Shown here one piece after another: positions 5,829-23,655 of a stretch of DNA of 64,000 bases. Origin of the DNA: Mesorhizobium waimense (GTDB lineage: Bacteria > Pseudomonadota > Alphaproteobacteria > Rhizobiales > Rhizobiaceae). The translations under genes and the position numbers were made by a program. Each line of letters starts with the position of its first letter. Position 1 is the first letter of the stretch. Below the pieces are notes generated by a model that was not told the DNA's origin, did not search any database, and saw nothing but the letters and a program-made list of their open reading frames with translations. The stretch covers positions 62,001 through 126,000 of the forward strand of contig NZ_QZWZ01000004.1 of the NCBI RefSeq assembly GCF_003601975.1, given 5' to 3'.

Positions 5829-5844
5829 TTGAATGAGTATTCAA
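5829..5844. promoter_or_regulatory. Operator-like palindrome TTGAA-N6-TTCAA (Rieske gene)
   Basis: TTGAATGAGTATTCAA ends 17 bp before the ATG of the Rieske oxygenase gene. The extended 22-bp sequence around it matches the reverse complement of the 17784-17799 site at 20 of 22 positions. A third copy is at 9532-9547. A BetI-like TetR repressor (16212-16898) encoded in the same island is the natural candidate for binding. Binding is inferred, not shown. Confidence 0.65.
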
Positions 5845-5861
5845 CAAATGAAGAGCCTTTG

Positions 5862-7064
5862 ATGAACCCGCACCTCCGTGACGTGGCGATCCCCAACAAT
5901 TGGGACCGGCGGGGCCTGCCGGGTTGGAGTTACCACTCCGACGCCCTTCTCGAACTCGAGAAGGAATACGTCTTCCGCAACCACTGGCAGATCGCCGGCC
6001 ATGTCTGCGACGTGCCGAATGCCGGCGACTATCTGACCATGGACGTGGTCGGCGAGCGGGCGCTGATCGTGCGCGGCAAGGACGGCGTCGTGCGCGCCTT
6101 CAACAACATGTGCCGCCACCGCGGCAGCCGCGTCGTCGCCGACAGCCAGGGCACCTGCAAGAACGCCTTGGTCTGCCCCTTCCATGGCTGGGTATACAAT
6201 CTTGACGGCACGCTGCGCGGTGCTGCCCGTCCGCGCTCCTTCCCCGATCTCGACAAGACCGAGTTCGGCCTGGTACCGCTCGACCTGGAAATCTGGATGG
6301 GCTTCGTCTTCATCCGCTTCCGCAAGGGCGGCCCGCAGCCATCGGTGGCCGAACTGCTGAAGCCGATCGAGGCCGAGATGACTTACTACAATGTTGCCGA
6401 CATGGTGCCGTCCTGGGGCATCTGGACGCAGAAATCGCCGGTCAACTGGAAGTCGGTACGCGATGTCGACAATGAAGGCTACCACGTCGCCATGGCGCAT
6501 CCGGCGCTGCAGGACCTCTACGGCGCGACCTATTTCGACGAGCCGTTCATCAACGGCGTGTCGCGCTCCTTCGCCACCTACAATCGGCATGCCGGGCGGC
6601 GCTGGAGCGTGCGGGAGTACATCAAGCTCGCCCCCGACGCGTCGCATCTGCCGGAGCACCTGCGCAAGGCCTGGATCTACTACGGCATCTTCCCCAACAA
6701 CGCGCTGTCGATCATGCCGGAATCGGTGCAGTTCTATCAGGAGTTCCCGCTGTCGACTGGCGAGACGCTGCTGCGCGGCGCCATCTACCGCTACCCCGAC
6801 GAGACCAGGGAGCAGGCGGCGGCACGCTATCTCGCCTACCGCATCGATCGCGACACCATGAACGAGGACGTGCAGCTCTCGGTGTGGTCGAACGAATCGA
6901 TGCTGTCGGAAGCCTTCGGCGGCTTTTACCTCTCCGATCTCGAATACGGCGTGCGCACCCACCACGACCATTTGCGCAAGCAGATCCCCGTGCTCGGGCT
7001 GGAGACGGCGCCCGAGGAGAAGGACATGTGGGCGCTGAACGACGCGCTGAGGTCGCAGTCGTAG
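5862..7064 (+). CDS. Rieske non-heme iron oxygenase, alpha subunit
   Basis: The protein has 400 residues from ATG 5862, which has GAAGAG 8 bp upstream; an in-frame ATG at 5820 lies inside the promoter region. The Rieske [2Fe-2S] ligands are Cys84/His86 and Cys105/His108. The mononuclear iron site is NEGYHVAMAH with His208 and His213. It resembles the ring-hydroxylating oxygenase alpha family, which includes N-demethylases of glycine betaine, proline betaine and carnitine. Such enzymes need an electron-donating reductase, and none is encoded in this window. Neighbouring genes for amine uptake, deamination and folate-linked oxidation favour an N-demethylation role, but the substrate is unproven. 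The operator-like palindrome just upstream links it to the rest of the island. Confidence 0.9.
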   Translation: MNPHLRDVAIPNNWDRRGLPGWSYHSDALLELEKEYVFRNHWQIAGHVCDVPNAGDYLTMDVVGERALIVRGKDGVVRAFNNMCRHRGSRVVADSQGTCKNALVCPFHGWVYNLDGTLRGAARPRSFPDLDKTEFGLVPLDLEIWMGFVFIRFRKGGPQPSVAELLKPIEAEMTYYNVADMVPSWGIWTQKSPVNWKSVRDVDNEGYHVAMAHPALQDLYGATYFDEPFINGVSRSFATYNRHAGRRWSVREYIKLAPDASHLPEHLRKAWIYYGIFPNNALSIMPESVQFYQEFPLSTGETLLRGAIYRYPDETREQAAARYLAYRIDRDTMNEDVQLSVWSNESMLSEAFGGFYLSDLEYGVRTHHDHLRKQIPVLGLETAPEEKDMWALNDALRSQS

Positions 7065-7215
7065 GACGGCGAAGCCGGACCATGTGCGGGCTGCTCGGCC
7101 CGGACGGCCCGACAGGCACATTCACGCACGCGGAACTCGGCACCATCCCGTGGTAACCCATTTCGGACTGCGCACCGCGAGTCGAATCCAAATGAAGCCT
7201 GAGCAACCACCAGCT

Positions 7216-7731
7216 TCAGGGTTTTGTTCGGCGTGCAAAATGCTCATACGTGATTTGCCAAGCATCGCTCTCGGAAGATCGTTCCTCGCCGATCCAATGG
7301 AAGCTGTCGGCAGTGATCTCGGTAAAACGCCATCGAGTTTTCAGACCGCACGAATCACTGCCGAGCTGGACAATGTCGCTACCTTCGGCCCGCCCGATCT
7401 GGCGCGAGTGATCTTGGTTGAGCGGGTCGTTCCATATGATGTGCCAGCCATCGATCCCAGGATCGAAGATGCGCAAAGTCGTGCCATACATCGTGGACGG
7501 CGCAGGGCGCTTGGGCCTGATCCAAACGTCCTGAATCGCGCGGCCTCCGAGCACCCAGCCAAAATGGCATTCTCCATCCCATTTCTGGATTGTGCCGTCG
7601 TCGAGGTAGTGGACCGAGTCCATTTCCCAGCTTCCAATTAGCCATCCATAAAGGTCCATGTCTTTCGCTCGGTCGGCTGGGGGACCTTCGGATCCGAGAG
7701 CGATGAGAAACGGAGAAATCGTCATCGTCAT
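7216..7731 (-). CDS. Conserved hypothetical protein, lipocalin/DUF1579-like fold possible
   Basis: The product has 171 residues from ATG 7731, preceded by AAAGGCAG. Longer upstream frames have low-complexity sequence and are unlikely. It has no signal peptide or membrane helix. It contains many Trp and Gly residues, with the recurring patterns WLIGSWEMD and GWVLGGRAIQDVWI. These resemble small cytosolic beta-barrel proteins of the kind annotated as DUF1579-like or lipocalin-like, which might bind a small ligand. It sits alone between the Rieske gene (convergent side) and the aminotransferase. The function is unknown. Confidence 0.7.
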   Translation of the reverse strand: MTMTISPFLIALGSEGPPADRAKDMDLYGWLIGSWEMDSVHYLDDGTIQKWDGECHFGWVLGGRAIQDVWIRPKRPAPSTMYGTTLRIFDPGIDGWHIIWNDPLNQDHSRQIGRAEGSDIVQLGSDSCGLKTRWRFTEITADSFHWIGEERSSESDAWQITYEHFARRTKP

Positions 7732-8021: not shown

Positions 8022-8028
8022 TAAGGAA

Positions 8029-9444
8029 TTATCCTTGCCACACACCTTCCCGACGCAGGTCCTCCATCGTGCGCGAAATGCCTTCGCGCAGGATCGCCAC
8101 CATGTCGTCGATCTGCTCGCGCGAAATGATCAGCGGCGGCGACATCACGCACATGTTGATCAGCGGCCTGACCAAGAGGCCAAGATCATGGCAATGCGCG
8201 TCGATCCGCTTGCCGACATCCTTGTCGAGCTTCAACGGATCCTTGCTTTCGCGGTCGGCGACGCATTCGACGCAGCCCATCAGCCCCATGCCGCGCACCT
8301 CGCCGACCAGAAGCAGTTCCTCCAGCGTCTTCAGTTGCGCTTGGAAATAGGGCGCGACCTCGCGCGTGTGGGCGAGCACGCTCTCCTCGAGGATGTCGAG
8401 GTTCTTCAGCGCCACCGCACAGCCGATGGGATGGCTGGTGTAGGTCAGACCATGGCCGAACAGCGCGTCGGGGTGGTTCGAACGGCGCAACTGCTGCAAA
8501 ATCCGCTCCGAGATGACGACGCCGCCGAGCGGGAAATAGCCTGAGGTGACGCCCTTGGCGAAGGTGATCATGTCGGGGTCGATGCCGAACACTTCGCCGG
8601 AGGCAAAGACGTGGCCGAGCCGGCCGAAGCCGGTCACCACCTCGTCCGAGACATAGAGGATGTCGTTGTCGCGGCAGATCTCGCGGATGCGCTTCAGATA
8701 GCCGTCCGGCGGCACGATGACGCCGCCCGATGCCTGCACCGGCTCGCCGACGAAGGCGCCGATCCTGTCGGCGCCGACGCGGGCGACAGTGTCGCGGAAC
8801 TGATCGACCAGGAAATCGGTGAATGCCTCGATGCTCGTGCCTTGCGGGCGACGGAACGGATCGGGCGAGGACAGCTTGACCACCAGCTCGTCGGCGCCAT
8901 CCATCCAGTCGCGGTCGCGCGGACGGCCGTTGAGCGAGGCCGACAGATAAGTCGAACCGTGATAAGCGCCGCCGCGGCTGAGGATCAGCTTCTTTTCCGG
9001 CCGTCCCCGTACATTGTTGTAGAACTGCATGAAGCGCAGCGCCGTCTCCACCGCCGAGGAGCCGCCGGTGGTGAAGAAGACATGGCTGAGGTCACCCGGC
9101 GCGTGCCCCGCGATGCGCATGGCGAGCTCCGCCGACGGCGCGTTCATCGTGTACCATGGCGTGTTGTAGGACAGCGCCATCGCCTGGTCGTACATCACCT
9201 TGGCAAGCTCCTCGCGGCGGTGGCCGACATTGATGCACCACATGCCGGCCGGCCCGTCGATCAGCCGCTTGCCGGAAGCATCGGTGATGTAGATGCCCTC
9301 GCCCTCGCCGATCAGCGCGCGCGCCTCGGCGCCGACCGAGCCCGCGAACGGCCAGGGCTGGACGAGATGGCGCTTGGCCAGTTCGACGGCGTCAACACCG
9401 GCATCCGCGGCCTCCATCGCCTTCAGGTCTCTTGCTGCCGCCAT
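8029..9444 (-). CDS. Class III PLP-dependent aminotransferase (omega-amine type)
   Basis: The protein has 471 residues from ATG 9444, preceded by GTGAGGC; upstream codons to 9525 are not needed for the fold. It is a fold-type I class III enzyme with the PLP lysine at about Lys297 in ITFAKGVTSGYFPLGG, the acidic SDEVVTGFGR strand that holds the pyridine nitrogen, and TTGGSSAVETA for the phosphate cup. The family moves the amino group of putrescine, beta-alanine, GABA or similar omega-amines to pyruvate or 2-oxoglutarate. It is divergent from a PotBCA-like transporter, with a shared operator-like palindrome at 9532-9547 between them, so polyamine or omega-amine catabolism is likely. The exact substrate cannot be read from the sequence. 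Confidence 0.92.
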   Translation of the reverse strand: MAAARDLKAMEAADAGVDAVELAKRHLVQPWPFAGSVGAEARALIGEGEGIYITDASGKRLIDGPAGMWCINVGHRREELAKVMYDQAMALSYNTPWYTMNAPSAELAMRIAGHAPGDLSHVFFTTGGSSAVETALRFMQFYNNVRGRPEKKLILSRGGAYHGSTYLSASLNGRPRDRDWMDGADELVVKLSSPDPFRRPQGTSIEAFTDFLVDQFRDTVARVGADRIGAFVGEPVQASGGVIVPPDGYLKRIREICRDNDILYVSDEVVTGFGRLGHVFASGEVFGIDPDMITFAKGVTSGYFPLGGVVISERILQQLRRSNHPDALFGHGLTYTSHPIGCAVALKNLDILEESVLAHTREVAPYFQAQLKTLEELLLVGEVRGMGLMGCVECVADRESKDPLKLDKDVGKRIDAHCHDLGLLVRPLINMCVMSPPLIISREQIDDMVAILREGISRTMEDLRREGVWQG

Positions 9445-9531
9445 CTTTGCCTCACATGCTCTCGTGACAATTTTCAGCGGACACGAAATCAAGCTCCAAG
9501 CCATGGGAAAAGCGGCTTTTTTCACTTCATT

Positions 9532-9547
9532 TTGAATGTCCGTTCAA
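9532..9547. promoter_or_regulatory. Operator-like palindrome TTGAA-N6-TTCAA (aminotransferase/transporter)
   Basis: TTGAATGTCCGTTCAA lies in the 297-bp divergent region between the aminotransferase and the transporter operon. It shares the arms and the TG after TTGAA with the 5829 site. The rest of the 9445-9741 interval shows no gene. Confidence 0.6.
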
Positions 9548-9741
9548 TCAATATTACAGAAATAGCGCTTGATTTCAATCGCCGGATGCGCGCATGATGA
9601 AAGAAAGCCGGCAAGCTTGATGCGCGACCCGCAAATCGTGCTCCAGGCATAAATTGGGAACAGGCAGCTGGTACCAACAATGGGATGCAGCATGGCAGGA
9701 CAGTCCGAGCCAGCAACGAAGATCGCGCCGGGGGCGCTGCA

Positions 9742-10659
9742 ATGACGGCGGCTGCCGAAGGGTCGCCTGCACGGCGCATGACGCGGGCCAGGCGAAACGC
9801 TCTTCTGCAGTCCGAACCCGTCCAGGGCTTTGCCCTGATCAGCCCCACCTTCCTCTATGCCCTCATCCTTCTGGTCCTGCCGATCCTGGTGGTCATCGCC
9901 CACTCCTTCTGGACGCAGAACTACCTCACCATCGACCGCACCTTCACGCTGGAGAACTACCGCATCGCGCTGACCGAGCCGATCTATCGCGACCTGCTCT
10001 GGCGCTCGCTCTACATCTCGCTGATGGTGAGCTTCTTCACGGTCGTGCTCGCCTACCCGATCGCCTATTTCATCTCGTTCCATGGCGGCCGCCACAAGAG
10101 CCTGTGGCTGTTCCTGATCACCATCCCGTTCTGGACCAGCTATCTGCTGCGCGTGATGTCGTGGAAGGTCATTCTCGGCTACAATGGCGTGCTCAATTCC
10201 GGATTGATGGGCCTCGGCATCATCGACGAGCCGTCGACCGCACTGCTCTACAATTCGACCGCCGTCATCATCACGCTGACCCATGCCTGGGCGGCCTTCG
10301 CAATCCTGCCGATCTTTGTGTCATTGGAAAAAGTCGACCGCACGCTGGTCGAGGCGGCCAAGGATCTCGGCGACGGTCCGCTGCGCTCCTTCCTGCGCGT
10401 GACGCTGCCGCTGTCGGTGCCCGGCGTCATTTCGGCGGCGCTGATCGTCATGATCCCGACCGTCGGCGACTACGTCACGCCGAAGCTTGTCGGCGGCAAG
10501 GACGGCGTCATGATCGCCAACGCCATCCAGGCGCAGTTCGGCAAGGCGTCCAACTGGCCGCTGGGCGCCGCACTTTCCGTCACCACCATGGTGATCGTGA
10601 CACTGATCGCCGGCGCCATGGTGCTGGTCATCCGCGCCGCCCAGAGGCTGGCACGATGA
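9742..10659 (+). CDS. ABC transporter permease, PotB-like
   Basis: The protein has 305 residues from ATG 9742; ATG 9685 is an alternative that adds 19 polar residues. About six membrane helices are visible, starting near residue 30 (FALISPTFLYALILLVLPIL). The cytoplasmic EAA loop that contacts the ATPase is VEAAKDLGDGPLRSFLRVTLP. It belongs to the spermidine/putrescine (PotB) type inner-membrane permeases. It overlaps the next permease gene by 4 bp and forms an operon with it and the ATPase. The two periplasmic binding proteins at 13883-16155 on the other strand presumably deliver substrate. Confidence 0.92.
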   Translation: MTAAAEGSPARRMTRARRNALLQSEPVQGFALISPTFLYALILLVLPILVVIAHSFWTQNYLTIDRTFTLENYRIALTEPIYRDLLWRSLYISLMVSFFTVVLAYPIAYFISFHGGRHKSLWLFLITIPFWTSYLLRVMSWKVILGYNGVLNSGLMGLGIIDEPSTALLYNSTAVIITLTHAWAAFAILPIFVSLEKVDRTLVEAAKDLGDGPLRSFLRVTLPLSVPGVISAALIVMIPTVGDYVTPKLVGGKDGVMIANAIQAQFGKASNWPLGAALSVTTMVIVTLIAGAMVLVIRAAQRLAR

Positions 10660-11480
10660 CGGCGTTGCGGCGTCTCCTGGGCAGCGGCTGGCTGTCGGCC
10701 TATGCCTTTCTTTACGTGGTGTTCCTCTATCTGCCGGTCATCTTCCTGCCGATCTTCTCGATCAACACCGCGGCGACGCCGAAATTCCCGCTCTCCGGCT
10801 ACACCCTCAAATGGTACGAGGATCTGCCGCGCACGCCGGCACTGCTCGACGCCGCCTGGAACAGCCTCGTCGTCGGCGTCTCGGCGTCCATCCTCGCCAC
10901 CGTCTTCGGCATCCTCGCCGCCCGCTCCATCACCCGCTACCGCTACCCCGGCCGCCGTGCGATCAACGGCCTGATCATGGCGCCGCTGGTGCTGCCGGAG
11001 GTGATCGTCGCCATCTCGATGCTGCTGGTGATGCTGCAACTGGGCTTGAGCCTGTCGCTGTTCACGGTCGTGCTTGGCCATGTGCTGGTCTGTATACCTT
11101 ATTCGATGACGGTGCTGACCTCCGGCTTCGAAGGGTTCGACCGCAGCCTGGAAGAGGCCTCCGCCGATCTCGGCGAGAGCGCCTTCGGCACCTTCCGGCG
11201 GGTGACGCTGCCGATGGTGTCGCCGGCGATCATCTCCAGCCTGCTGGTCTGCTTCACCATCTCGCTCGACGAGTTCATAATCGCCTTCTTCCTGACCGGC
11301 ACCGATGCGACGCTGCCGATCTACATCTGGGGACAGCTGCGTTTTGCGTCGAAGCTGCCCGGCGTGCTGGCGCTGGGCACCTTGCTGCTGGTCGCCTCGT
11401 TCCTGCTGATGACCGTCGCCGAAATCCTGCGCCGCCGCGCGGCCGGGCGCACCCAGAACGAGGGAGGCCTCTATGCCTGA
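10656..11480 (+). CDS. ABC transporter permease, PotC-like
   Basis: The protein has 274 residues. ATG 10656 overlaps the stop of the preceding permease (ATGA), which indicates translational coupling. It has about six membrane helices and the EAA loop LEEASADLGESAFGTFRRVTLP. It is the second, PotC-type, half of the permease heterodimer for polyamine-like substrates. Its 3' end overlaps the ATPase gene start by 8 bp. A longer frame open from 9654 reads through the first permease in another phase and is not coding there. Confidence 0.93.
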   Translation: MTALRRLLGSGWLSAYAFLYVVFLYLPVIFLPIFSINTAATPKFPLSGYTLKWYEDLPRTPALLDAAWNSLVVGVSASILATVFGILAARSITRYRYPGRRAINGLIMAPLVLPEVIVAISMLLVMLQLGLSLSLFTVVLGHVLVCIPYSMTVLTSGFEGFDRSLEEASADLGESAFGTFRRVTLPMVSPAIISSLLVCFTISLDEFIIAFFLTGTDATLPIYIWGQLRFASKLPGVLALGTLLLVASFLLMTVAEILRRRAAGRTQNEGGLYA

Positions 11481-12612
11481 ACAATCGCAGGCCGCACGGC
11501 CTCATCAGTCCGAACGGCCCCCGCTATCCGAAAGGCCCATGATCGAGATCCGCAACGTCACCCGCAGCTACGGCGCCTTCAAGGCGCTGGACGATGCCAC
11601 ACTGACCATCCGGGAAGGCGAATTCTTCTCGCTGCTCGGCCCGTCCGGCTGCGGCAAGACCACGCTGCTGCGCATGATCGCCGGCTTCGACAATCCGACC
11701 ACCGGCTCGATCGCCGTCGGCGGCCAGCCGATGGAAGGCATCCCCGCCAACCGCCGGCCGACCAACATGGTGTTCCAGAGCTATGCGATCTTCCCGCATC
11801 TCAATGTCGAGCAGAATGTCGCTTACGGGCTGAAGCGCCTGAAGCTGCAGGGGACGGAGGAAAAGCGCCGCGTCGAGGAGGCGCTGGAACAGGTCTCGTT
11901 GACCGGTCTCGGCAAGCGTCTGGCCACCGAACTTTCCGGCGGCCAGCGCCAGCGCGTAGCGCTCGCCCGTGCGCTGGTGATGCGGCCCAAAGTGCTGCTG
12001 CTCGACGAGCCGCTGTCGGCGCTGGACAAGAAACTGCGCGAGCAGATGCAGGTCGAACTGCGCCGCCTGCAGCAGGCGGTTGGCATTACGTTCGTGCTGG
12101 TCACCCACGACCAGTATGAGGCTTTAGCAATGTCCGACCGCATCGCCGTGATGTTCGGCGGCAAGATCGCCCAGGTCGCATCGCCCAAGGAGATCTACCA
12201 GCGGCCGGTCAACCGCCAGGTGGCCGACTTTCTCGGCGGCATGAATTTCGTCAAGGCCGAGATCGTCGAGGAGAACGGCGCTTCGCTGGTCCTCGACACG
12301 CTGGGCTTCGGCCGCGTCAAGGCCGACAAACCCAAAGCGTTTGTCCGCAATGGCGAAGCCGCGACGCTCGGCATACGACCGGAGCGGCTGCGCGTTCTGT
12401 GGGACAATGCCACGGCGAAATTCGAAGTCGCCGGCAAGGTGGTCGAGCGCCACTATTTTGGTGAGATCACCCATCTGATCGTCGAGATCCCAGGGCTGGA
12501 AAAGCCGCTCTCGGTGACCGAAACCAACGACTTCGGCGCCGACGACATCCCGGTCGGCACCTCGATCCGCCTCGCTTATGATCCTGAAGCTTTAGTGGCG
12601 ATGGCAGACTGA
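11473..12612 (+). CDS. ABC transporter ATP-binding protein, PotA-like
   Basis: The protein has 379 residues. The nucleotide-binding domain (about 23-260) carries Walker A GPSGCGKTT, the signature LSGGQRQRVALARAL, Walker B VLLLDEP and the H-loop in VTHDQYEAL, where Tyr replaces the usual Glu. A C-terminal TOBE-type domain (about 290-375) follows. The N-terminal 22 residues are a polar extension; MIEIRN (11539) is a possible second start. It energises the PotBC-like permeases upstream. Its last 37 bp overlap tail-to-tail with the flavoprotein gene on the other strand (12576-13886). Confidence 0.93.
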   Translation: MPEQSQAARPHQSERPPLSERPMIEIRNVTRSYGAFKALDDATLTIREGEFFSLLGPSGCGKTTLLRMIAGFDNPTTGSIAVGGQPMEGIPANRRPTNMVFQSYAIFPHLNVEQNVAYGLKRLKLQGTEEKRRVEEALEQVSLTGLGKRLATELSGGQRQRVALARALVMRPKVLLLDEPLSALDKKLREQMQVELRRLQQAVGITFVLVTHDQYEALAMSDRIAVMFGGKIAQVASPKEIYQRPVNRQVADFLGGMNFVKAEIVEENGASLVLDTLGFGRVKADKPKAFVRNGEAATLGIRPERLRVLWDNATAKFEVAGKVVERHYFGEITHLIVEIPGLEKPLSVTETNDFGADDIPVGTSIRLAYDPEALVAMAD

Positions 12613-13886
12613 AGTTCGGCGGTGATCTTCTTGGCGGCGATGCGTCCCGCCACGATCGCGCCCTCGACATAGCCGGGAAATGACGGCGACACTTCCGACG
12701 AGGCGAAATGGACGGGCGGCGCGCCTGCAAGGATCGTGCGCTCAGCATCGGTCGCCGTCACATCGACAATGAGGTCGCTGTAGGCGCCGCCGCTCCAGCG
12801 ATCATGCGTCCAGTCGCGCTGGCTGAAATCGAGGATATCGGCCGCGTCCGGGCCGAGCGCTTCCTCGAGCCTTGCGGTCACTTCGGCGCGAAGTGTTGCA
12901 TCGCTGAACTCGCGCCAGCGCAGCGCAAGCGGTCCGCCGACGAACACGACGAGCGCGGCATGGACCGCATCCTTGCTGGAGTCACAGGCAAACAGTCCCG
13001 GCCGGTCGCGCCACATCACCATGCCGCTCAAGCCGCGGTCGCGCCAAAATGGCGTGGCATAGCGCACCAGTATCTTGATCACCGCACCGCTCTTCCAAAC
13101 GCCGAGCGCCCTCTTCAAGCTAACCGGCAGAGATGGTGCGAAATCGAGTTTCGCAGCCATCACCGGCGGCAGCGCGACCAGGACTTGGCGCGCTTCGATC
13201 GCGCCGCTGGCCGAGATGACAAGGACGCCTTTCGGCCCGTGCTCGATCTGCGTCACAGGTTCGCTCAGCCGCAACCGGTCGCCGAGGTCGCCGGCCAGAT
13301 CATCCGCCAGCGACTGCATGGTCTCGCGCAAGAAATATTGCAGCTCCGGCACCTCGTTGGTGATACGGCGATCATTGTTGATCAGGTGCCAGAGCGGCAC
13401 CTTTTCCAGTGCCAGGCACCACAGGCCCTCGATCATCGACCGGAAGGCTGCCTTGCCTTCGCCGGTATCGTTCTGGCGGTCGAGCCAGGCTGCGACGGTC
13501 AGCCCGGCAATCGAGGCATTGTCAGGCGCGATCGCATTCATGCGCTCGCGGATCGCCATCGCAGCGAAATAAGTCCGTTCGGCTGCTTGCGGCGACATTG
13601 ACGGCCGCGCGATGAAATCGCCCTCGACATAGGTCTCGACCAGCGTCTTGCCGCGCGCCTCGATCAGCGCCATCAATTCCGGCATGTCCTCGCACAGGAA
13701 CTGACCGCCGCTGTCGATCAAGTCACCAAGGCCATTCAGGCTCGATTCCACACGGCCGCCGACGCGGTCGCGTGCCTCGAGCAGCACGAAATCGATGCCG
13801 GCTTTTTGCAGCTCATGGGCGGCCGACAGGCCGGTGAAGCCGGCGCCGACGATGACAACGCCGGTTTTTTCGATTTCTTTGTTCAA
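12576..13886 (-). CDS. FAD-dependent amine oxidase-like flavoprotein
   Basis: The protein has 436 residues. The N-terminal Rossmann fold VVIVGAGFTGLSAAHELQ and the following ARDRVGGRVES motif are typical of the monoamine-oxidase/polyamine-oxidase family. A C-terminal FAD-binding segment (SPSFPGYVEGAIVAGRIAA) completes the fold. It has no signal peptide, so it should act in the cytoplasm, oxidising an amine to an imine or aldehyde with release of H2O2. It overlaps the binding-protein gene upstream by 4 bp (13883-13886) and is the last gene of the minus-strand unit methyltransferase, repressor, two binding proteins, oxidase. The substrate is likely the imported amine or a product of it. Confidence 0.88.
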   Translation of the reverse strand: MNKEIEKTGVVIVGAGFTGLSAAHELQKAGIDFVLLEARDRVGGRVESSLNGLGDLIDSGGQFLCEDMPELMALIEARGKTLVETYVEGDFIARPSMSPQAAERTYFAAMAIRERMNAIAPDNASIAGLTVAAWLDRQNDTGEGKAAFRSMIEGLWCLALEKVPLWHLINNDRRITNEVPELQYFLRETMQSLADDLAGDLGDRLRLSEPVTQIEHGPKGVLVISASGAIEARQVLVALPPVMAAKLDFAPSLPVSLKRALGVWKSGAVIKILVRYATPFWRDRGLSGMVMWRDRPGLFACDSSKDAVHAALVVFVGGPLALRWREFSDATLRAEVTARLEEALGPDAADILDFSQRDWTHDRWSGGAYSDLIVDVTATDAERTILAGAPPVHFASSEVSPSFPGYVEGAIVAGRIAAKKITAELQSAIATKASGS

Positions 13887-14959: not shown

Positions 14960-15026
14960 GGCGCGAAACTCCCCCATCGCGAAAACGGCGCGGCGACGTT
15001 AGGAGAATTCCCGCGCTTTGGCGAGC

Positions 15027-16211: not shown

Positions 16212-16898
16212 TCAGGCGTAGTGCTTTGGAAACGCCGCCGACAGGAACGCGTTCGCCGCCTGCAGCGCGCTCTCGCGGGTGACGTCCTCGGTCCCCATCA
16301 TCAGCCGTAGCCACAGGCCCTCCAGCATGGCGCTCAGCGCCAGCGCGATGACTTGCGGCTCATAGGCATAGCCGCCGCTCTCTTTGAGCGTCGCGCAAAG
16401 GTCGATGAAGATCTTCTGGTAGGCGGCGTCGCGCGCGCCGCACAGCGCCTGATAGGTCGGCCGCGACTTTGCCTCGCCCCAGAAGGCGCACCAGGCGGCC
16501 AGCTTGCGCTTGTTGCAGATCGAGCGGTCGAAGTCGGCGGCGACCAGCGCCCGCAACTGGTGGGCCGGATCCTCGCCGGCCCTGGTCAATGCGGCACGCC
16601 AGTGCGCGGCATATTCGTCGGCCATGTATTGCAACGTGGCGACGAGCAGCTTGTCCTTGCTTTCGAAGTGAAAGTTGACGATGCCGCGCGACAGGCCTGC
16701 GCCATCGGCGACATCGGCCATCGTCGTCTCCGAATAGCCGCGCTTGGCCAGCGAATCGATCGTCGCCTCGATCAACTGCTGCTGCCGGACTTCCTTCGAC
16801 GCCTTGCGGCCGCGCTTTTCGGGATCGCCTTTTCGTGCTGGTTCAGGCAGAACATCCTTGGCATCTGCGGTCTTCATCGGTGTCATGATCTCCAGCAT
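16212..16898 (-). CDS. BetI-like TetR-family transcriptional repressor
   Basis: The protein has 228 residues; ATG 16886 and 16877 are possible later starts. A basic N-terminal tail is followed by a TetR helix-turn-helix (about 38-85, with TMADVADGAGLSRGIVNFHFESKDKLL). The C-terminal domain contains AAWCAFWGEAKSRPTYQAL, which resembles the ligand-binding region of BetI, the choline-responsive repressor. It is embedded in the minus-strand unit of the island. I infer that it controls the TTGAA-N6-TTCAA sites at 5829, 9532 and 17784 and is released by a quaternary or methylated amine. Direct evidence is lacking. Confidence 0.88.
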   Translation of the reverse strand: MLEIMTPMKTADAKDVLPEPARKGDPEKRGRKASKEVRQQQLIEATIDSLAKRGYSETTMADVADGAGLSRGIVNFHFESKDKLLVATLQYMADEYAAHWRAALTRAGEDPAHQLRALVAADFDRSICNKRKLAAWCAFWGEAKSRPTYQALCGARDAAYQKIFIDLCATLKESGGYAYEPQVIALALSAMLEGLWLRLMMGTEDVTRESALQAANAFLSAAFPKHYA

Positions 16899-16904
16899 TG
16901 CCGG

Positions 16905-17699
16905 CTACCCAACCGGCTTTCGACCGCGAAGATGAGTGGGACGGTGCTCACCACTGTCAAGCACCTTCTGCATGGCTTCCCAGGTCCGGATGTTCTTGTC
17001 GACATAGGCGGCACCTACCGCGGCCGCGACCGTCGGATAGAGCGGACCTTTCAGCCTTTCCAACTCGCCGCGGGCGACCTCGCGATACCACGGATTGCGG
17101 TCGCGTATGGTGACATCGGCAAAGCCTGCCCGACGCATCGCCAGCGCATAACGCTCAGGCGAGGCCATGGCAAAGGACAGGCCTTCGGCGGCGACATAGG
17201 CCTGCATCTCGGGCGACGGCTGGCCGTCATGCGAGATCATCCAGTTCGACGCGGCGAAGGCGCCGCCCGGTTTCAGCACCCGGAAGATTTCGGCAAACAG
17301 CGCGTCCTTGTCGGGCACATGCAGCAGCGCATCCTTGGAGAAGACGATATCGAAGGAAGCATCGGTGAACGGCAGACGACCGGGCGGCGCCTGGATAAAG
17401 CTGGCGCGATCGGAAAGCCCGCGCGCCGCTGTCCGTTGCCTGGCCGTCTCGATCACCGGGCGCTCGACATCGAAACCCGTGGCGTGGGCAGCAGCATGAC
17501 GCTCGACCAGATGCAGCGTGATGCCGCCTAAGCCGCAGCCTATGTCGAGGACCGTCTTGCCCGCGAGCGACAGGCCTTCGACGACGCGGTCGACTTCGTC
17601 CGGCCCGCCTGGCGACAGATAGCCGTCGCCCCAGAGCGCCTCCAGGAAGCGGATGGCGGTGTCGTCATATTCCGGCTCGGCGTCTGCCGTTTCGATCAT
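16905..17699 (-). CDS. Class I SAM-dependent methyltransferase
   Basis: The protein has 264 residues. The SAM site is clear: motif [11 protein letters not shown] (about residues 50-60), the acidic ribose-binding residue in GFDVERP, and the motif IV region [15 protein letters not shown]. The start [22 protein letters not shown] resembles phosphoethanolamine and glycine/sarcosine N-methyltransferases. Its place as first gene of the repressor/binding-protein unit, with 6 bp to the repressor gene, suggests a substrate in the same amine pathway. An N-methyltransferase beside demethylating enzymes could salvage or detoxify an intermediate. The function is inferred from context. Confidence 0.85.
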
Positions 17700-17783: not shown

Positions 17784-17799
17784 TTGAACATTCATTCAA
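17784..17799. promoter_or_regulatory. Operator-like palindrome TTGAA-N6-TTCAA (divergent promoter)
   Basis: TTGAACATTCATTCAA lies in the 200-bp region between the methyltransferase gene (minus) and the first flavoprotein gene (plus). Its reverse complement, TTGAATGAATGTTCAA, matches the core of the 5829 site closely. A repressor bound here could control both directions. Confidence 0.65.
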
Positions 17800-17899: not shown

Positions 17900-19519
17900 A
17901 TGAAGGCGTGGGATGCGATCGTCATCGGCGGCGGCCACAACGGACTGGTCAACGCCTGCTACCTGCAGCGCGCCGGCCTCGACGTGCTGGTGGTCGAGAA
18001 GAACGACTGGGTCGGCGGTGCGGCCACCAGCCGCGAATTGACACCTGGTTTCCTCTATTCCAACTGCTCCTATGTCTGCTCGCTGTTCAGGCCCGAGATC
18101 ATGCGCGACCTGGAGCTGCCGCGCTTCGGCCTGCAAGTGATTTCCTACGAGGGTGGCGCGGTCTTCACCAGGGACGGCGACTATCTCGCCAACTACCGCG
18201 ATCACGACGCCCACCGGCGCGAGTTCGCCCGCTTCTCCAAGCGCGATGCCGAAGCATATGACCGCTACGCCCGCGACGTGACGCGGCAGTGCCGCTTCAT
18301 CCAGCCGCTGCTGATGCGCACCGCGCCGGACCCGACCAGTTTTCGACCGCGTGACCTCGGCGAGCTTCTCTATCTCGGCAAGAAATTCGCCGGGCTGTCG
18401 GCGGAAGAAATGGCACTGACGCTGCGCTTCTGGACGATGTCGATCTCGGACTTCCTCGATGAGTATTTCGAGACCGATGTCATCAAGGCGAACTTCGCTT
18501 TGTCCGGCATCATCGGCACCGCGCTTGGACCGATGTCACCCGGCACGGCTTACGTGCTGCTGCACCACTATATGGGCGAAGTCGACGGCTCGGTCGGCGC
18601 CTGGGGCTATGCGCGCGGCGGCATGGGCGCCGTCACCAAGGCGCTCGCGGCGTCCTTCAAGGCCTCCGGCGGCACCATCCGCACCGGCGCCGAGGTCGAC
18701 CACGTGCTGGTTAGCCGAGGCAAGGCGAAAGGCGTGGCGCTGGCCGGCGGCGAGGATATTTACGGCAAGCTCGTCGTATCCAACGCCGACGTGAAGCGCA
18801 CCTTCCTCAAGCTGGTCGAGGAAAAGGAACTGCCCGACATCTTTCTGCGCCGGGTGAGGAACTTCAAGATTCGCGGCTCGTCCGGCAAGGTCAACATTGC
18901 GCTCGATTCGCTGCCCGAATTCCCGGCGCTGCCGAAGGATTCTCCGGCCTATCGCGGCGACATGCATTTCACCGATTCGATGGAGCGCATGGAGCGCGCT
19001 TATGACGACTGGAAAGCCGGGCGCTGGTCGGCCGACCCGTTCCTCGACATGGTAATCCCGACGACGCTCGACCCGACCATGGCGCCGCCGGGCAAGCACT
19101 TCATGAGCTGCTTCGTGCAATACGCTCCACCCAAGATAGCAGGGGCGGACTGGACCGACGCTGATCGCGATGGGTTCGCCGAAAGCGTGATTTCGCAGAT
19201 CGCCGAATATTCGCCCGGCTTCCGCGATCGTATCGTCCACATGGAGGTGCGCACGCCGCGCGAGATCGAAGCCGAGGTCGGGCTGACCGAAGGCAATATC
19301 TTCCAGGGCGAACTGACCTTCGACCAGCTGCTTTTCAATCGACCGGTGCCGGGCTACGCGCAATACCGCTCGCCGCTCAGTGGGCTCTATATGTGCGGCT
19401 CGTCGACTCATCCCGGCGGCGGCGTCATGGGCGCGCCCGGCCGCAACGCCGCCGCCGAGATCCTGCGCGACCTCGCCAAATCGACCTCGCATATGAGCCC
19501 GGCCCATGACGTCATTTGA
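17900..19519 (+). CDS. NAD(P)/FAD-dependent oxidoreductase, PYROXD2/phytoene-desaturase-like (A)
   Basis: The protein has 539 residues. The N-terminal FAD-binding motif is DAIVIGGGHNGLVNACYLQ followed by VVEKNDWVGGAATSREL. The C-terminal FAD segment is LYMCGSSTHPGGGVMGAPGRNAA, as in phytoene-desaturase-type and PYROXD2-type oxidoreductases. It has no signal peptide. Its last 14 bases overlap the start of a second, related flavoprotein gene, so the two are translationally coupled and may form a heteromer. The GcvT-like gene follows. In this setting it could oxidise an N-methyl or amine group with folate as acceptor; that is inference. Confidence 0.87.
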   Translation: MKAWDAIVIGGGHNGLVNACYLQRAGLDVLVVEKNDWVGGAATSRELTPGFLYSNCSYVCSLFRPEIMRDLELPRFGLQVISYEGGAVFTRDGDYLANYRDHDAHRREFARFSKRDAEAYDRYARDVTRQCRFIQPLLMRTAPDPTSFRPRDLGELLYLGKKFAGLSAEEMALTLRFWTMSISDFLDEYFETDVIKANFALSGIIGTALGPMSPGTAYVLLHHYMGEVDGSVGAWGYARGGMGAVTKALAASFKASGGTIRTGAEVDHVLVSRGKAKGVALAGGEDIYGKLVVSNADVKRTFLKLVEEKELPDIFLRRVRNFKIRGSSGKVNIALDSLPEFPALPKDSPAYRGDMHFTDSMERMERAYDDWKAGRWSADPFLDMVIPTTLDPTMAPPGKHFMSCFVQYAPPKIAGADWTDADRDGFAESVISQIAEYSPGFRDRIVHMEVRTPREIEAEVGLTEGNIFQGELTFDQLLFNRPVPGYAQYRSPLSGLYMCGSSTHPGGGVMGAPGRNAAAEILRDLAKSTSHMSPAHDVI

Positions 19520-21071
19520 TGCAATCGTCATTGGCGGCGGCCATAACGGCCTCGTCGCCGCCGCCGTGCTGGCAAAGAGCGGCCGCAAAGTGCTGGTGCT
19601 GGAAGCCGCAACGGATATCGGCGGTGCGGCGCGGACCGAGGAATTCGCGCCGGGCTTTCGCGTCTCTTCCGTCGCCCATGTGCTGAACCGTCTGCATCCC
19701 GATGTGGTGAAGACGCTGGAGCTGGAACGTCACGGGCTGGAGATTGCGCGCGGCGACTTCGTGCCTTCCGTGGCGCTGTCCAGGGATGGGCCACCGCTTG
19801 TACTGCATGGCGCCTATGGAGAGGCGCTGACCGGCGCCAGTTCGTCCGAGCAAACCGCATGGAAGGAACTAAGCGCCCAACTGCTGCGCTATGCCGGCAT
19901 ATTGAAACCGTTTCTGTCACGCCGTCCGCCCGATCTTAGCGCCATGTCGCTGCTAGAGACGGCAGCGCTCGGCCAGACCGCGCTGGCGCTGAAGAAACTC
20001 GGCAAGGAAGACATGCGCGATTTCCTGCGCGTGCTTTTAATGAATGTCGCCGACCTGCTCGACGAGCAGCTCACCGACGACCGGCTGAAAGGCTTGCTCG
20101 CCTTCGATGCGACGCTCGGCGGCCATCTCGGTCCGCGTTCGCCGACCTCGCTGCTCGGCCTCTACTACCGGCTGGCGGGCGAGATCGGCGGTGCTGCCGG
20201 CGCGCAGGCGCTGCCGAAGGGCGGCATGGGCGCGGTCGTCACCGCCATCCGCGCAGCGGCGGAGAAGGCTGGCGTGACAATCCGCGCCGCCTCACCGGTG
20301 GCCAAGATCATCGTCGAAAAAGGTCGCGCCGTCGGCGTCGCACTCGACAACGGCGAGGTGCTGCATGCGAAAGCGATCGTCTCCGCCATCAATCCGGCAA
20401 CCACTGTCCTCGACCTCGTCGGACCGCGCGAGGTCGACACAGGTTTCGTGCGCAAGGTCAAGAACATCCGGATGAAGGGCAATGCGGCCAAGCTCAACCT
20501 GGCGCTCGACCGGCCGCCGCAATTTGTCGGCGTCGACGCCGCCGGCCACAAAGGCCGCCTGGTCATCGCGCCCTCGCCCGACCATGTCGAGCGTGCCTTC
20601 AATCCCTGCAAATATGGCGAGTTCTCGCCCGAACCCGTGATGGAGATCACGCTGCCCTCGCTTGCCGATCCGTCGCTCGCGCCAGCAGGTGCCTGCGTGC
20701 TCTCGGCGGTCGTGCAGTATGCGCCCTATGCGCTGAAGGAAGGCTGGGGCGCCAGCAAACCGAAATTCCTGAAGGCGATCATGGCTCAGCTAGAGGCTTA
20801 TGCGCCAGGGATCTCCAAGACCGTGCTTCACAGCGAGCTTTTGACGCCGACCGACATTGAGGCGCGTTACCGCATGCCCGGCGGTCACTGGCATCACGGC
20901 GAATTGCAGGCCGACCAGATGCTGATGTCGCGGCCGGTCTCCGGCTGGTCGGGCTACGACACGCCGGTCGAAGGCCTGTTCCTCGCCGGCGCCGGTTCGC
21001 ATCCGGGAGGTGGCGTCTCCGGCAGGCCCGGTTTGAACGCCGCCCGGCGCATCATCGCGATGAGGGGATAG
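19506..21071 (+). CDS. NAD(P)/FAD-dependent oxidoreductase, PYROXD2/phytoene-desaturase-like (B)
   Basis: The protein has 521 residues and starts at ATG 19506 inside the end of the preceding gene (14-bp overlap). The FAD motif DAIVIGGGHNGLVAAAVLAKSG, LEAATDIGGAARTEEFAPG and the C-terminal LFLAGAGSHPGGGVSGRPG match the same family as its neighbour. The two are clearly paralogous but diverged, which suggests an old duplication with separate roles or a two-subunit enzyme. The GcvT-like gene starts 3 bp after its stop, so the unit is tightly coupled. Confidence 0.87.
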   Translation: MTSFDAIVIGGGHNGLVAAAVLAKSGRKVLVLEAATDIGGAARTEEFAPGFRVSSVAHVLNRLHPDVVKTLELERHGLEIARGDFVPSVALSRDGPPLVLHGAYGEALTGASSSEQTAWKELSAQLLRYAGILKPFLSRRPPDLSAMSLLETAALGQTALALKKLGKEDMRDFLRVLLMNVADLLDEQLTDDRLKGLLAFDATLGGHLGPRSPTSLLGLYYRLAGEIGGAAGAQALPKGGMGAVVTAIRAAAEKAGVTIRAASPVAKIIVEKGRAVGVALDNGEVLHAKAIVSAINPATTVLDLVGPREVDTGFVRKVKNIRMKGNAAKLNLALDRPPQFVGVDAAGHKGRLVIAPSPDHVERAFNPCKYGEFSPEPVMEITLPSLADPSLAPAGACVLSAVVQYAPYALKEGWGASKPKFLKAIMAQLEAYAPGISKTVLHSELLTPTDIEARYRMPGGHWHHGELQADQMLMSRPVSGWSGYDTPVEGLFLAGAGSHPGGGVSGRPGLNAARRIIAMRG

Positions 21072-21074
21072 ACC

Positions 21075-22334
21075 ATGGCAAAGGCAACCAGGAAGAAGCC
21101 CGCCGTGACCGAGATCGATGCGCCTGCCGATGCTCGCACAGCCGCTCAATCCCATTTCCGGACCTTGCGGCTCGGCACGCCGTTCCAGCCGCGCATCGAT
21201 GCGTTGGCGAGGACCGATGACTGGTACAATTGGGCCGGCTATCGCGCCCCGCATTCGCTGTGGGACGAGGAGCTCGAATATTTCGCCATCCGCAGCCAGG
21301 CCGCTTTGTTCGACATCTCGCCGATGACGAAATACCGTATCGAGGGCTCGGACGCCGAAGCCTTCCTCAATCGCGTCACCTTGCGCGATGTGGCGAAGCT
21401 CAAGCCGGGCCGCGTCCACTATACCGCCTGGTGCGACGACGCAGGTTTTGTCCTCGACGACGGCACTTTGTTCCGGCTGTCGCCGACGCGCTTTCGTCTT
21501 TGCTCGCAGGAGCGGCATCTGCCCTGGCTGCTCGACAGTGCTATCGGCTCAGAGGTCACCGTTGAGGAAGAAACCGAGGCCGTCGGCGGCCTGGCACTGC
21601 AAGGCCCGACCTCGTTCGCCGTGCTTGTCGACGCCGGTTTCGCCGGCGTCGACAAGCTGAAAATATTCGACCTCGCCGAGTTCCCGCATGACGGCGGCAC
21701 CGTCACCATCTCGCGCACCGGCTTCACCGGCGACCTCGGCTACGAACTGTTCGTGCCAGCCGAAAAGGCGCTGAGCCTCTGGGACCGGCTGATGATTGCG
21801 GGCGAACTGCGCGGCATCCGCGCCATCGGCTATACGGCGCTGAACCGCGCTCGGCTGGAAGCCGGACTGATCGTCGCAAATGCCGACTTCACCACCGCCG
21901 AACATGCCATCCGCACCGACCGCTTGCGTATGCCTGACGAGATCGGTCTCGGCTTCATGATCGACCTGGAGAAAGGTCATTTCAACGGCCGTCGCGCCAT
22001 CCTCGAGGCCCGCACCAAGCGCAAGCTGCGGCATGTGCTGGTCGGGCTGGAGATCGAGGGCAACATCCCGGCCGAGCACGCCATCGTCTACTACAAGAAA
22101 AGCCAAGAAGTCGGGCTGGTCAGCGCCGCCATGTGGTCGCCGATGGCCAAGCGCAACATCGCCCTCGCCTCTCTCAAGCGGCCGTTTGGCGATACGATGG
22201 TCGAAGACCTCTGGGTCGAGATCTATGCCATGCGCGAGTTGCAGTACCAAAAGCTGATGAAGCGGGCCAAGGTGGTGCAGCGCCCCTTCATCAAGCTCGA
22301 CCGCCGCACCGCCAATCCGCCGGCGGATTTCTGA
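21075..22334 (+). CDS. Aminomethyltransferase (GcvT) family folate-dependent protein
   Basis: The protein has 419 residues, longer than the usual 360-370 of glycine cleavage T protein because of a 40-residue N-terminal extension. Recognisable GcvT parts include RSQAALFDISPMTKYRIEGSDA, ISRTGFTGDLGYELFV and the C-terminal beta-barrel with PAEHAIVYYKKSQEVGLVSAAMWSP. The family transfers one-carbon units from substrate amines to tetrahydrofolate, as GcvT, the C-terminal domain of dimethylglycine and sarcosine dehydrogenases, or DMSP demethylase. The two coupled flavoproteins upstream make a split, multi-polypeptide version of a dimethylglycine-dehydrogenase-like enzyme plausible. The ribosome binding site is GAGGGGATAGA. 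Confidence 0.87.
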   Translation: MAKATRKKPAVTEIDAPADARTAAQSHFRTLRLGTPFQPRIDALARTDDWYNWAGYRAPHSLWDEELEYFAIRSQAALFDISPMTKYRIEGSDAEAFLNRVTLRDVAKLKPGRVHYTAWCDDAGFVLDDGTLFRLSPTRFRLCSQERHLPWLLDSAIGSEVTVEEETEAVGGLALQGPTSFAVLVDAGFAGVDKLKIFDLAEFPHDGGTVTISRTGFTGDLGYELFVPAEKALSLWDRLMIAGELRGIRAIGYTALNRARLEAGLIVANADFTTAEHAIRTDRLRMPDEIGLGFMIDLEKGHFNGRRAILEARTKRKLRHVLVGLEIEGNIPAEHAIVYYKKSQEVGLVSAAMWSPMAKRNIALASLKRPFGDTMVEDLWVEIYAMRELQYQKLMKRAKVVQRPFIKLDRRTANPPADF

Positions 22335-22337
22335 TCC

Positions 22338-22583
22338 ATGAGTGACGAGGCAGAGCTCGAAGCCGCCGATCAGTGGCAACTGGTCAATACGCCGCTCGGT
22401 GAAAAATGGTCGGGCCGTACGCGCTATGCCGCTGCCATGTTCTTCTACAAACGCGGCGAGATGAGCGCCGAGACGCTCGAAGTCTACCGTATCTGCGCGC
22501 GGCTGGACTCCACCGATCCGTTGCCGATCATCCGCGATCGCGGCGGCGGCCAGGACTGGCTGAAGCGCATGGGCTACAAATAG
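22338..22583 (+). CDS. Small hypothetical protein (81 aa) coupled to the GcvT-like gene
   Basis: The product has 81 residues and starts 4 bp after the GcvT-like stop, so co-translation is likely. It is soluble and acidic, with no signal or membrane helix. Recognisable stretches are WQLVNTPLGEKWSGRTRYAAAMFFYKRGEMS and a Gly-rich DRGGGQDWLKRMGYK end. I know no named domain for it. Its fixed place behind the two flavoproteins and the folate enzyme suggests a small subunit or assembly factor of that complex. The frame ends 13 bp before the end of the convergent dipeptidase gene. Confidence 0.75.
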   Translation: MSDEAELEAADQWQLVNTPLGEKWSGRTRYAAAMFFYKRGEMSAETLEVYRICARLDSTDPLPIIRDRGGGQDWLKRMGYK

Positions 22584-22596
22584 TGACGCGGGTCGA

Positions 22597-23655
22597 TTAT
22601 CCGATCGTCTTCTCGAGCATGCCGATCCAGTTTCGGTAAGCGATCTTCTCAATCAGCGCCCGCCCGAAGCCGCGTACTGCAAGCGCGTCGATCAGCTTCG
22701 GCAGGCCGGCAACGTCACCGATGACGGCCGGGATCATAGCGCCGTCGAAATCCGATCCCAGGCCGACGCCGTCCTCGCCCAGCGCCTGCAGCAGCGAGTC
22801 GACGTGGCGAACCATGATCTCGAGGCTGGTGTCGGCGTTCATACGGCCGTCCTCGCGCAGAAACCCGGTGGCGAAGTTCAGCCCGACCATGCCGCCGGTC
22901 TCGCGAATCGCGCCGAGCTGCCAGTTGGTGAGGTTGCGCGAATGGCCGCAGATCGCATGCACGTTGGAATGGGTCGCCACCAGCGGCGCGTCGCTGATCG
23001 CGGCGACATCGCGAAAACCCTTCTCGTTGAGATGCGAGAGGTCGATCATGATCCTGAGCTGGTTGCAAGCCTTGACCAGCGCCTTGCCGGCGTTGGTCAG
23101 ACCAGGGCCGGTGTCGGGCGACGACGGAAAGCGGAACGGCACGCCATTGCCGAAGGCGTTGGGGCGGCTCCAGACGATGCCGAGCGAACGCAGGCCGGCG
23201 GCGTGCAGAACGTCGAGCATGGTGAGCTCGGGGTCGATCGCCTCGACACCCTCGATGTGGAATACCGCCGCGATCGCATCCTTCGCCATCGCCTCGCGCA
23301 CATCGCCGGCGCTGCGGCAGACGGTCACCGCTCCCGCCCGCTCCAGCCGGAACAGGATCGAGGCCATGGCGATGGTCGAGGCGAGTGCTTCAGAGCGCGG
23401 AAGCTCCGGCGGCAAGGGCTCGTTGTCGCTCGGCGCCGGCGGCACCGAGGCGCGTTTGGTTTTCTCGACCGGCGGCGGGAAGATCGCGAACATGCCGCCG
23501 GCAAAGCCGCCCTTCTTGGCGCGCGGCAGGTCGATATGGCCGCCCTGCGTCCCCTCGATGAACAGCTTTTCGACATCCGCGTCCTTCGACTGGTAGAGCC
23601 TGAGCAGCGTGTCGTTGTGGCCGTCGAACACGGGGACGAGATCGGTTTCGGTCAT
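22597..23655 (-). CDS. Membrane dipeptidase family (M19) metallohydrolase
   Basis: The protein has 352 residues. The metal-binding start VPVFDGHNDTLL (HxD pair), FHIEGVEAI (bridging Glu), DLSHLNEKGF and ATHSNVHA are the hallmarks of the renal/membrane dipeptidase family, a dizinc amidohydrolase fold. There is no signal peptide, so it is probably cytoplasmic. In Pseudomonas aeruginosa an M19 homologue is encoded beside the dimethylglycine catabolic genes, near glycine-betaine demethylase. Its presence here fits a methylated-amine pathway, though its reaction there is not established. Confidence 0.9.
   Translation of the reverse strand: MTETDLVPVFDGHNDTLLRLYQSKDADVEKLFIEGTQGGHIDLPRAKKGGFAGGMFAIFPPPVEKTKRASVPPAPSDNEPLPPELPRSEALASTIAMASILFRLERAGAVTVCRSAGDVREAMAKDAIAAVFHIEGVEAIDPELTMLDVLHAAGLRSLGIVWSRPNAFGNGVPFRFPSSPDTGPGLTNAGKALVKACNQLRIMIDLSHLNEKGFRDVAAISDAPLVATHSNVHAICGHSRNLTNWQLGAIRETGGMVGLNFATGFLREDGRMNADTSLEIMVRHVDSLLQALGEDGVGLGSDFDGAMIPAVIGDVAGLPKLIDALAVRGFGRALIEKIAYRNWIGMLEKTIG

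Follow-up and report, generated by a model that had tools for sequence, protein, structure and literature searches.

We describe here a gene cluster of Mesorhizobium waimense that, judged by its sequence, is a single regulon, and that on balance we think serves to import a quaternary ammonium compound and to remove its N-methyl groups oxidatively. The cluster lies within a window of 64,000 nt (contig positions 62,001-126,000) of the 8.15 Mb genome. All the gene parts named in an initial annotation of this DNA, including a BetI-like regulator, a Rieske oxygenase and flavoproteins next to a protein of folate type, were recovered by domain and family scans and translations. Its overall interpretation stood in part: the island is catabolic and conserved, and its substrate is probably an N-methylated compound, but neither polyamine-type uptake nor the inclusion of an M19 dipeptidase held up. 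Among the papers listed by literature searches of open-licence publications none dealt with this cluster, and within the reach of these searches the regulon, its operator, the arrangement of two flavoproteins with a stand-alone folate-type protein, and the 81-residue protein p81 appear undescribed; the parts belong to known families. The features, in window coordinates, are as follows (ORF, open reading frame; ABC, ATP-binding cassette; SAM, S-adenosylmethionine).

5829..5844, no strand: operator 1, TTGAA-N6-TTCAA, at the Rieske gene promoter
5862..7064, plus strand: Rieske oxygenase alpha subunit, 400 aa (PF00355, PF00848; ORF opens at 5820)
8029..9444, minus strand: AT3, class III aminotransferase (PF00202; ORF opens at 9525; start chosen among candidates)
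9532..9547, no strand: operator 2, between the divergent AT3 and PotB genes
9685..10659, plus strand: PotB-like ABC permease (counterparts 66-98% identical beside FAD1 in related loci)
10656..11480, plus strand: PotC-like ABC permease, 274 aa (PF00528; NCBIfam PotC is the best match, below its cut-off)
11473..12612, plus strand: PotA-like ABC ATPase (PF00005, PF08402)
12576..13886, minus strand: AmOx, amine-oxidase-family flavoprotein (PF01593; accessory)
13883..14977, minus strand: receptor SBP1, PotD/PotF-like (PF13416)
15073..16155, minus strand: receptor SBP2 (PotD model 85.1 bits, cut-off 582; ORF opens at 16314)
16212..16898, minus strand: BetI-like TetR regulator (PF00440, PF13977)
16905..17699, minus strand: SAM-dependent methyltransferase, MTase (PF13649/PF08241)
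17784..17799, no strand: operator 3, between the divergent MTase and FAD1 genes
17900..19519, plus strand: FAD1, CrtO/CrtI-like flavoprotein (PF01593 61.6 bits, PF01266 56.0 bits)
19506..21071, plus strand: FAD2, FAD1 paralogue, ~35% identical (separate clade in tree)
21075..22334, plus strand: GcvT-like folate-type protein (PF01571, 191 bits)
22338..22583, plus strand: p81, 81-residue helical protein (conserved among relatives)
22597..23655, minus strand: M19 dipeptidase (PF01244)

The palindrome TTGAA-N6-TTCAA was first spotted by eye in the window's AT3 and FAD1 promoters and then tested. The window holds exactly three copies, starting at 5829, 9532 and 17784, whereas 100 shuffles gave 0.02 on average. 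They sit at the promoter of the Rieske gene, at the promoter from which AT3 and PotBCA diverge, and at the divergent promoter from which MTase-TetR-SBP2-SBP1-AmOx and FAD1-FAD2-GcvT-p81 depart, so that, if same-strand neighbours are read together, the cluster would comprise five transcription units. A refined form of the operator, TTGAAYRNNYRTTCAA, matches the 8.15 Mb genome at these three places and nowhere else, and its reversed control pattern has none in the same genome. The shorter form, TGAAYRNNYRTTCA, matches the same three cluster sites only; since about two sites would be expected genome-wide by chance (estimated from the window G+C of 0.634), the TTGAAYRNNYRTTCAA search is the stronger test. 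Because 5829-5844 is an operator, the Rieske coding sequence probably starts at 5862. The start of SBP2 is near 16155, not at the ORF opening at 16314.

The operator was also searched for in 80 related loci (numbered L; genomes are numbered G), which are the best 80 of at least 570 stretches encoding some FAD1 relative, distant paralogues possibly included. They are 79-98% identical in FAD1, amount together to 1,607,985 bases, and include 39 loci counted as Mesorhizobium. Of 99 exact palindromes in these loci, 58 are at AT3, 33 at FAD1, 8 at the Rieske gene and none elsewhere. When up to one mismatch is allowed, sites are found in 66/67 AT3, 71/79 FAD1 and 19/19 Rieske promoters readable in full (truncated regions, 1 for FAD1 and 10 for Rieske, are omitted), while 210 of 5000 random windows of 360 bases from the same loci, promoters included, hold such a site. 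As the loci are related, these sites are not independent events. The operator is likewise present at the Rieske genes of two genomes, G037 and G228, in which Rieske and FAD1 lie on separate contigs.

The protein that would bind the palindrome is the TetR encoded in a transcription unit that departs from the third promoter. Like the choline-responsive repressor BetI, it has a TetR_C_6 domain and matches PRK00767 (129.7 bits, cut-off 118), but it falls below TIGR03384 (126.4 bits, cut-off 201.3), and its presumed operator is unlike the betI1 palindrome, ATTGACG*CGTCAAT (PMC12442346). It differs from BetI, too, in that the refined operator has no genomic site outside the cluster. One further TetR relative, 32% identical, is found in the genome at E 1e-20.

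The gene set recurs across Rhizobiaceae and partly in Rhodobacterales. In an order-wide sample of 297 genomes (ortholog cut-offs E 1e-150 for FAD1, 1e-60 for GcvT and 1e-90 for Rieske), FAD1 and GcvT orthologs occur in an identical set of 17. Gene order was compared in the 80 loci, omitting those whose contig ends too early. FAD2 follows FAD1 in 77/79 loci; GcvT begins within 200 bases of FAD2 in 68/77 (39/39 outside Mesorhizobium, 29/38 within), and gene-by-gene comparison places GcvT downstream of FAD2 also in the Mesorhizobium loci beyond this limit; p81 follows GcvT in 75/77, and a divergent TetR lies within 2 kb in 77/77. For the remaining genes, presence was counted in loci with 9.5 kb on both sides (30 from Mesorhizobium, 31 others): AT3 is present in 27 of the 31 non-Mesorhizobium loci, PotA in 26, Rieske in 21, AmOx in 11 (27/30 in Mesorhizobium) and M19 in none. 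In Mesorhizobium the Rieske gene is ~12 kb from FAD1, mostly beyond the 10 kb fetched (5/30 seen). In the Rhizobium-type layout PotABC-AT3-Rieske has the reverse orientation and flanks FAD1 on its other side, still inside the cluster. The neighbour conservation that the initial annotation proposed to check is therefore real: FAD1-FAD2-GcvT-p81-TetR stay together in many genera, mostly with SBP, PotABC, AT3 and Rieske, and share an operator. The nearest named loci are from Mesorhizobium, with M. amorphae at the top (90-98% protein identity across 14 genes).

Within the core, FAD2 begins 14 bases before FAD1 ends, and gaps of 3 bases precede GcvT and p81, so FAD1-FAD2-GcvT-p81 are likely translated from one message here. 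The FAD2 and GcvT matches are spaced by 236 and 271 bases in L025 and L027. A fusion of FAD2 and GcvT, suggested by long open frames, was rejected: the two genes are read in different frames in L028 and L029, and so are GcvT and the adjacent FAD2 segment in L038. In this last locus, FAD2 of G129 is split over two overlapping frames (L038:14378-15911), either because the gene carries a frameshift or through an error in sequencing. In a tree of 18 sequences, FAD1 and FAD2 form separate clades with 100/100 support, from which it follows that the pair is old and co-inherited.

In the pathway that we propose, SBP1 and SBP2 would pass the substrate to PotABC for import. The Rieske oxygenase would then hydroxylate one N-methyl group to release formaldehyde and a tertiary amine, as suggested by its kinship with CntA, Stc2 and GbcA and by its bridging glutamate. 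Co-inheritance, and the likeness of the GcvT-like protein to the folate domain of trimethylamine N-oxide (TMAO) demethylase (Tdm), suggest that the FAD1-FAD2 pair could dehydrogenate the remaining N-methyl groups, while the GcvT-like protein, on the same basis, may trap the one-carbon unit as methylene-tetrahydrofolate with p81 as a small accessory subunit. AT3 would deaminate the resulting primary amine, and the BetI-like TetR would repress the five transcription units through the three copies of the operator. Likely substrates are omega-amino acid betaines (of beta-alanine, gamma-aminobutyrate or 5-aminovalerate) or similar trimethylammonium compounds, none of which is strongly favoured. A regulon with such sharp bounds, common in rhizobia, predicts an unrecognised N-methylated nutrient, and its operator offers a direct induction assay, in which the substrate could be named by exposing one reporter strain to a set of compounds.

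In the case of the Rieske oxygenase, PF00355 and PF00848 both score above cut-off, and among solved structures CntA and Stc2 are the closest, the alignment with them spanning the first half alone. It shares with the group V enzymes CntA (carnitine), GbcA (glycine betaine) and Stc2 (stachydrine) the Cys-X-His and Cys-X-X-His motifs and the two mononuclear-site histidines, which align with those of CntA, together with the bridging glutamate (CntA position E205), kept in the window enzyme and in 12/12 orthologs; this comparison covers the first half of the protein, its C-terminal half being unaligned. AT3 exceeds the cut-off of NCBIfam PRK07036 (721 bits, cut-off 618) and has 3i5t as its nearest PDB entry.

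FAD1 and FAD2, which the initial annotation called PYROXD2-like, have Amino_oxidase and CrtO as their best models, with the DAO model above its Pfam cut-off in both as well, and retain the glycine motif of dinucleotide binding. Although CrtO is their best family model and their nearest solved relatives are CrtI-type (4dgk), they reach 306 and 227 bits against CrtO model NF045689 (cut-off 1000) and, unlike CrtO/CrtI flavoproteins, adjoin folate-type and amine genes. The predicted structure of FAD1 was poor (mean pLDDT 56.3) and was left unused; no fold statement here rests on a model of it. As for the GcvT-like protein, its best match and nearest solved relative is the C-terminal folate domain of TMAO demethylase; against NF053776 (TMAO demethylase) it scores 239 bits (cut-off 1100), over the C-terminal part only, and it lies below the GcvT family cut-offs (PRK00389, 203 against 300 bits; TIGR00528, 151 against 236 bits). 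The sequence GYEL is invariant in 9/9 aligned GcvT-like proteins, which thus keep the GYE glutamate, a mark of GcvT-fold folate proteins. The window's GcvT-like protein differs from Tdm in standing alone, without the N-terminal Tdm domain.

Heterotetrameric sarcosine oxidase and dimethylglycine dehydrogenase/oxidase likewise join a flavoprotein to a GcvT-type folate unit. Their GcvT parts match the cluster protein; their flavoproteins, however, are of the DAO type, whereas the cluster has two paralogues with Amino_oxidase and CrtO as best models. It is quite conceivable, if somewhat short of probable, that FAD1, FAD2, the GcvT-like protein and p81 represent a new class of folate-coupled amine demethylase, in which a CrtO/CrtI-type heteromer passes the one-carbon unit to a separate Tdm-like subunit. 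If so, the class arose independently of the DAO-type (sarcosine/dimethylglycine) and trimethylamine dehydrogenase (TMADH)-type demethylases, a flavoprotein family scored as carotene ketolase-like would prove to be an amine demethylase, and at least one sister regulon (L146, below) would use a TMADH-like enzyme instead.

More distant relatives of FAD1 vary in their surroundings. In Shinella sumterensis (L056:4020-13158), a 42% identical relative adjoins a gcvT whose product is 31% identical to the window's GcvT-like protein over 305 columns, in a locus that also holds genes for a CoA ligase, an enoyl-CoA hydratase, a 3-hydroxyacyl-CoA dehydrogenase and a member of the 3-keto-5-aminohexanoate cleavage family. 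Beside three other relatives, of 35-37% identity (L057, L058, L059), no gcvT is annotated, so a link to folate proteins is not general in the FAD1 family.

Cluster variants extend this picture. In Parasedimentitalea (L022, Rhodobacterales), FAD1, FAD2, GcvT, AT3, a receptor, PotA, PotB and Rieske are present at 44-66% identity and TetR at 33%, and the p81 and methyltransferase queries were unmatched. A second cluster type (L029, L030, L031, L033, L035, L036 and Fuscovulum, L021) has a different class III transaminase directly before FAD1 and a more distant transporter; the two of these transaminases that were scored, from L033 and L035, match models for GntE and glutamate-1-semialdehyde aminomutase without reaching the respective cut-offs. 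The shorter-form operator precedes the transaminase in L029, L031 and L033. Neighbours in L031 are an acyl-CoA dehydrogenase, a 3-hydroxyacyl-CoA dehydrogenase-thioesterase fusion, a beta-keto acid cleavage enzyme and a CoA ligase, which is the layout of carnitine dehydrogenase pathways. In light of this second type, the demethylation core seems to serve several substrates rather than a single one.

The polyamine-type uptake proposed by the initial annotation would make this a pathway for an N-methylated or acylated polyamine, imported through a polyamine transporter. The transporter is indeed of PotABCD type, putrescine and polyamine:pyruvate transaminases are among the solved structures related to AT3, and SBP1 and SBP2 belong to the PotF/PotD receptor family and retain its aromatic box. 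However, PotF residues D39, D247 and D278, at least 96% conserved and tied to amine binding according to one study (PMC8666671), are replaced in the window's two receptors by Gly, Thr or Ala, and Cys. Gly at 39 and Cys at 278 recur in 6/6 aligned receptors of the window type, and the position of a fourth carboxylate, E185, seems to be Asp in the window receptors; the receptors of three second-type clusters (L021, L030 and L033) keep Asp at 39, 247 and 278 in 3/3, a point in favour of polyamines. With these carboxylates lost, polyamine uptake is unlikely here, and an aromatic pocket without them would better suit a quaternary ammonium group. On these receptor residues we rejected the polyamine pathway as the leading reading, and regard it as improbable.

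We give still less credence to ordinary choline or glycine betaine catabolism by unusual enzymes. It would account for a BetI-like regulator above one NCBIfam cut-off and for a Rieske enzyme related to GbcA, but the operator differs from the betI1 palindrome and the window Rieske scores 134 bits against a GbcA cut-off of 670, while two other Rieske genes of the genome reach 521 and 493 bits, themselves also under 670. Since the genome has, outside the cluster, these two Rieske genes with far more likeness to GbcA, as well as several SoxA-family genes above their cut-off, glycine betaine and sarcosine are unlikely substrates, and we rejected this reading on the family scores and the other genes of the genome. 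A further alternative, unlikely though the least so of the three, is that one regulator governs two pathways, with uptake, Rieske and AT3 acting on one compound and FAD1-FAD2-GcvT-p81 on another, or on a shared breakdown product. This would fit L142 and L143, which hold PotABC-AT3-Rieske without FAD1, the second-type clusters, which pair FAD1-FAD2-GcvT with another transaminase and transporter, and the different contig of Rieske in G037 and G228. Against it, a single operator marks all blocks where it was found, unlinked Rieske genes included, and the blocks remain in one cluster even if inverted.

Several observations weigh against the quaternary-amine regulon that we favour. The oxygenase has Asp at the CntA Y203 position in 12/12 orthologs of the window type (of 15 aligned Rieske rows, the others are two of another type with Tyr, L030 and L034, and one cut before the site, L046), and Gly and Val replace the Cys pair of CntA and Stc2. 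According to two studies, position 203 marks the group V clades, with Tyr/Phe in Va and Asn in Vb (PMC7948474), and the Cys206-X-X-Cys209 pair is present in some group V members only (PMC10952381). We read the enzyme as a putative quaternary-amine oxygenase outside the two described group V clades. In the GcvT-like protein, the catalytic aspartate of E. coli GcvT (Asp101) is missing: the window has His, and the column is His in 8/9 and Met in 1/9 of the aligned proteins. Tdm, too, lacks Asp at this column, having Gly there and Asp two residues earlier. The family scans recognised neither a Rieske reductase nor an aldehyde dehydrogenase in the cluster, the type of transaminase varies among cluster variants, and the proposed scheme does not account for the methyltransferase and p81. 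No operator, even as the shorter form with flanking YR, was detected in L021, L022, L028, L030 and L034-L038, and four of these nine clusters (L022, L028, L037, L038) hold receptors or transaminases of the window type.

Also contrary are the Rieske orthologs themselves, which occur in 21/297 genomes, 11 of them with FAD1; the other 10 are without FAD1/FAD2/GcvT, so the Rieske enzyme can evidently do without these proteins in some genomes. For these ten loci, 15.6-19.9 kb around the gene were searched with a set of queries, and part of the ORFs went through family scans. L142 and L143 keep PotABC, AT3, Rieske and operators, and gave no match to the flavoprotein queries in the region covered, part of whose ORFs were scanned. 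L144 has PotABC and a second Rieske gene, L145 has two flavoproteins like old yellow enzyme (OYE) and TMADH, and L148 and L151 gave nothing clear from the query panel and the scans of some ORFs. In favour of the N-demethylation regulon, L146, without FAD1/FAD2/GcvT, has one OYE/TMADH-like flavoprotein, a 54% identical TetR and a second Rieske gene, with operators at the flavoprotein gene and the first Rieske gene. The OYE-like protein of L022 combines PF00724 and PF07992; since this copy and one scanned copy of L145 fall below every listed NCBIfam cut-off, such proteins are TMADH-like by architecture only. L147, L149 and L150, from one genus, share a compact cluster with a 42% identical TetR, two Rieske genes, another Pot-type transporter and a cupin, without FAD1/FAD2/GcvT; this is apparently a separate undescribed pathway.

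Turning to p81, this protein is a conserved domain with a predicted helical fold: its identity to 25 relatives selected from the loci is 43-83%, Pfam gives no match to it at E 0.001, and its AlphaFold2 model is a confident (90.8) arrangement of five helices that found no match in the PDB at E 0.001. A scan of viral contigs with p81 found nothing. In five genomes it resembles the N-terminal 50-60 residues of cupins of the dimethylsulfoniopropionate (DMSP) lyase family, at 43-46% identity (L021:25533-26384, L049:3539-4381, L147:14521-15369, L149:14734-15579, L150:4355-5182). PF16867 was confirmed in the L021 and L049 fusions, and those of L147, L149 and L150 are 57-61% identical to that of L021; a sixth such cupin, in L050, has no p81 part. 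The L021 fusion is annotated as DMSP lyase family, though its context is amine catabolism. A decayed cupin downstream of p81 in L025 was considered and rejected, as no open frame supports it.

The M19 dipeptidase, which the initial annotation had counted into the pathway, has the poorest case of all the genes for membership and is probably a neighbour: a search of the whole window found no operator at its promoter, and it is present in 26/30 Mesorhizobium loci and 0/31 others with enough flank. It does recur in L088, a metagenome-assembled Hyphomicrobiales genome too short for counting and 96% identical in FAD1. The methyltransferase gene adjoins FAD1 in 38/38 Mesorhizobium loci and 27/40 other loci, though the regulon is catabolic.

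Between the Rieske gene and AT3 lies an ORF of ~171 codons (7216-7731, minus strand), absent from the initial annotation and without a match in a Pfam scan. Its longer form has a third-position GC of 0.62, below that of its neighbours, and it may be a recent arrival. The M. waimense genome, at 8.15 Mb in 290 contigs, compares with 6.1-6.5 Mb for the same-genus genomes listed, and has a reported contamination of 2.7%. Elsewhere in the window are a match to the alphaproteobacterial small RNA ar35 (58506-58613, minus strand; 48.1 bits against a gathering score of 45) and a tRNA-Glu at 60281-60355.

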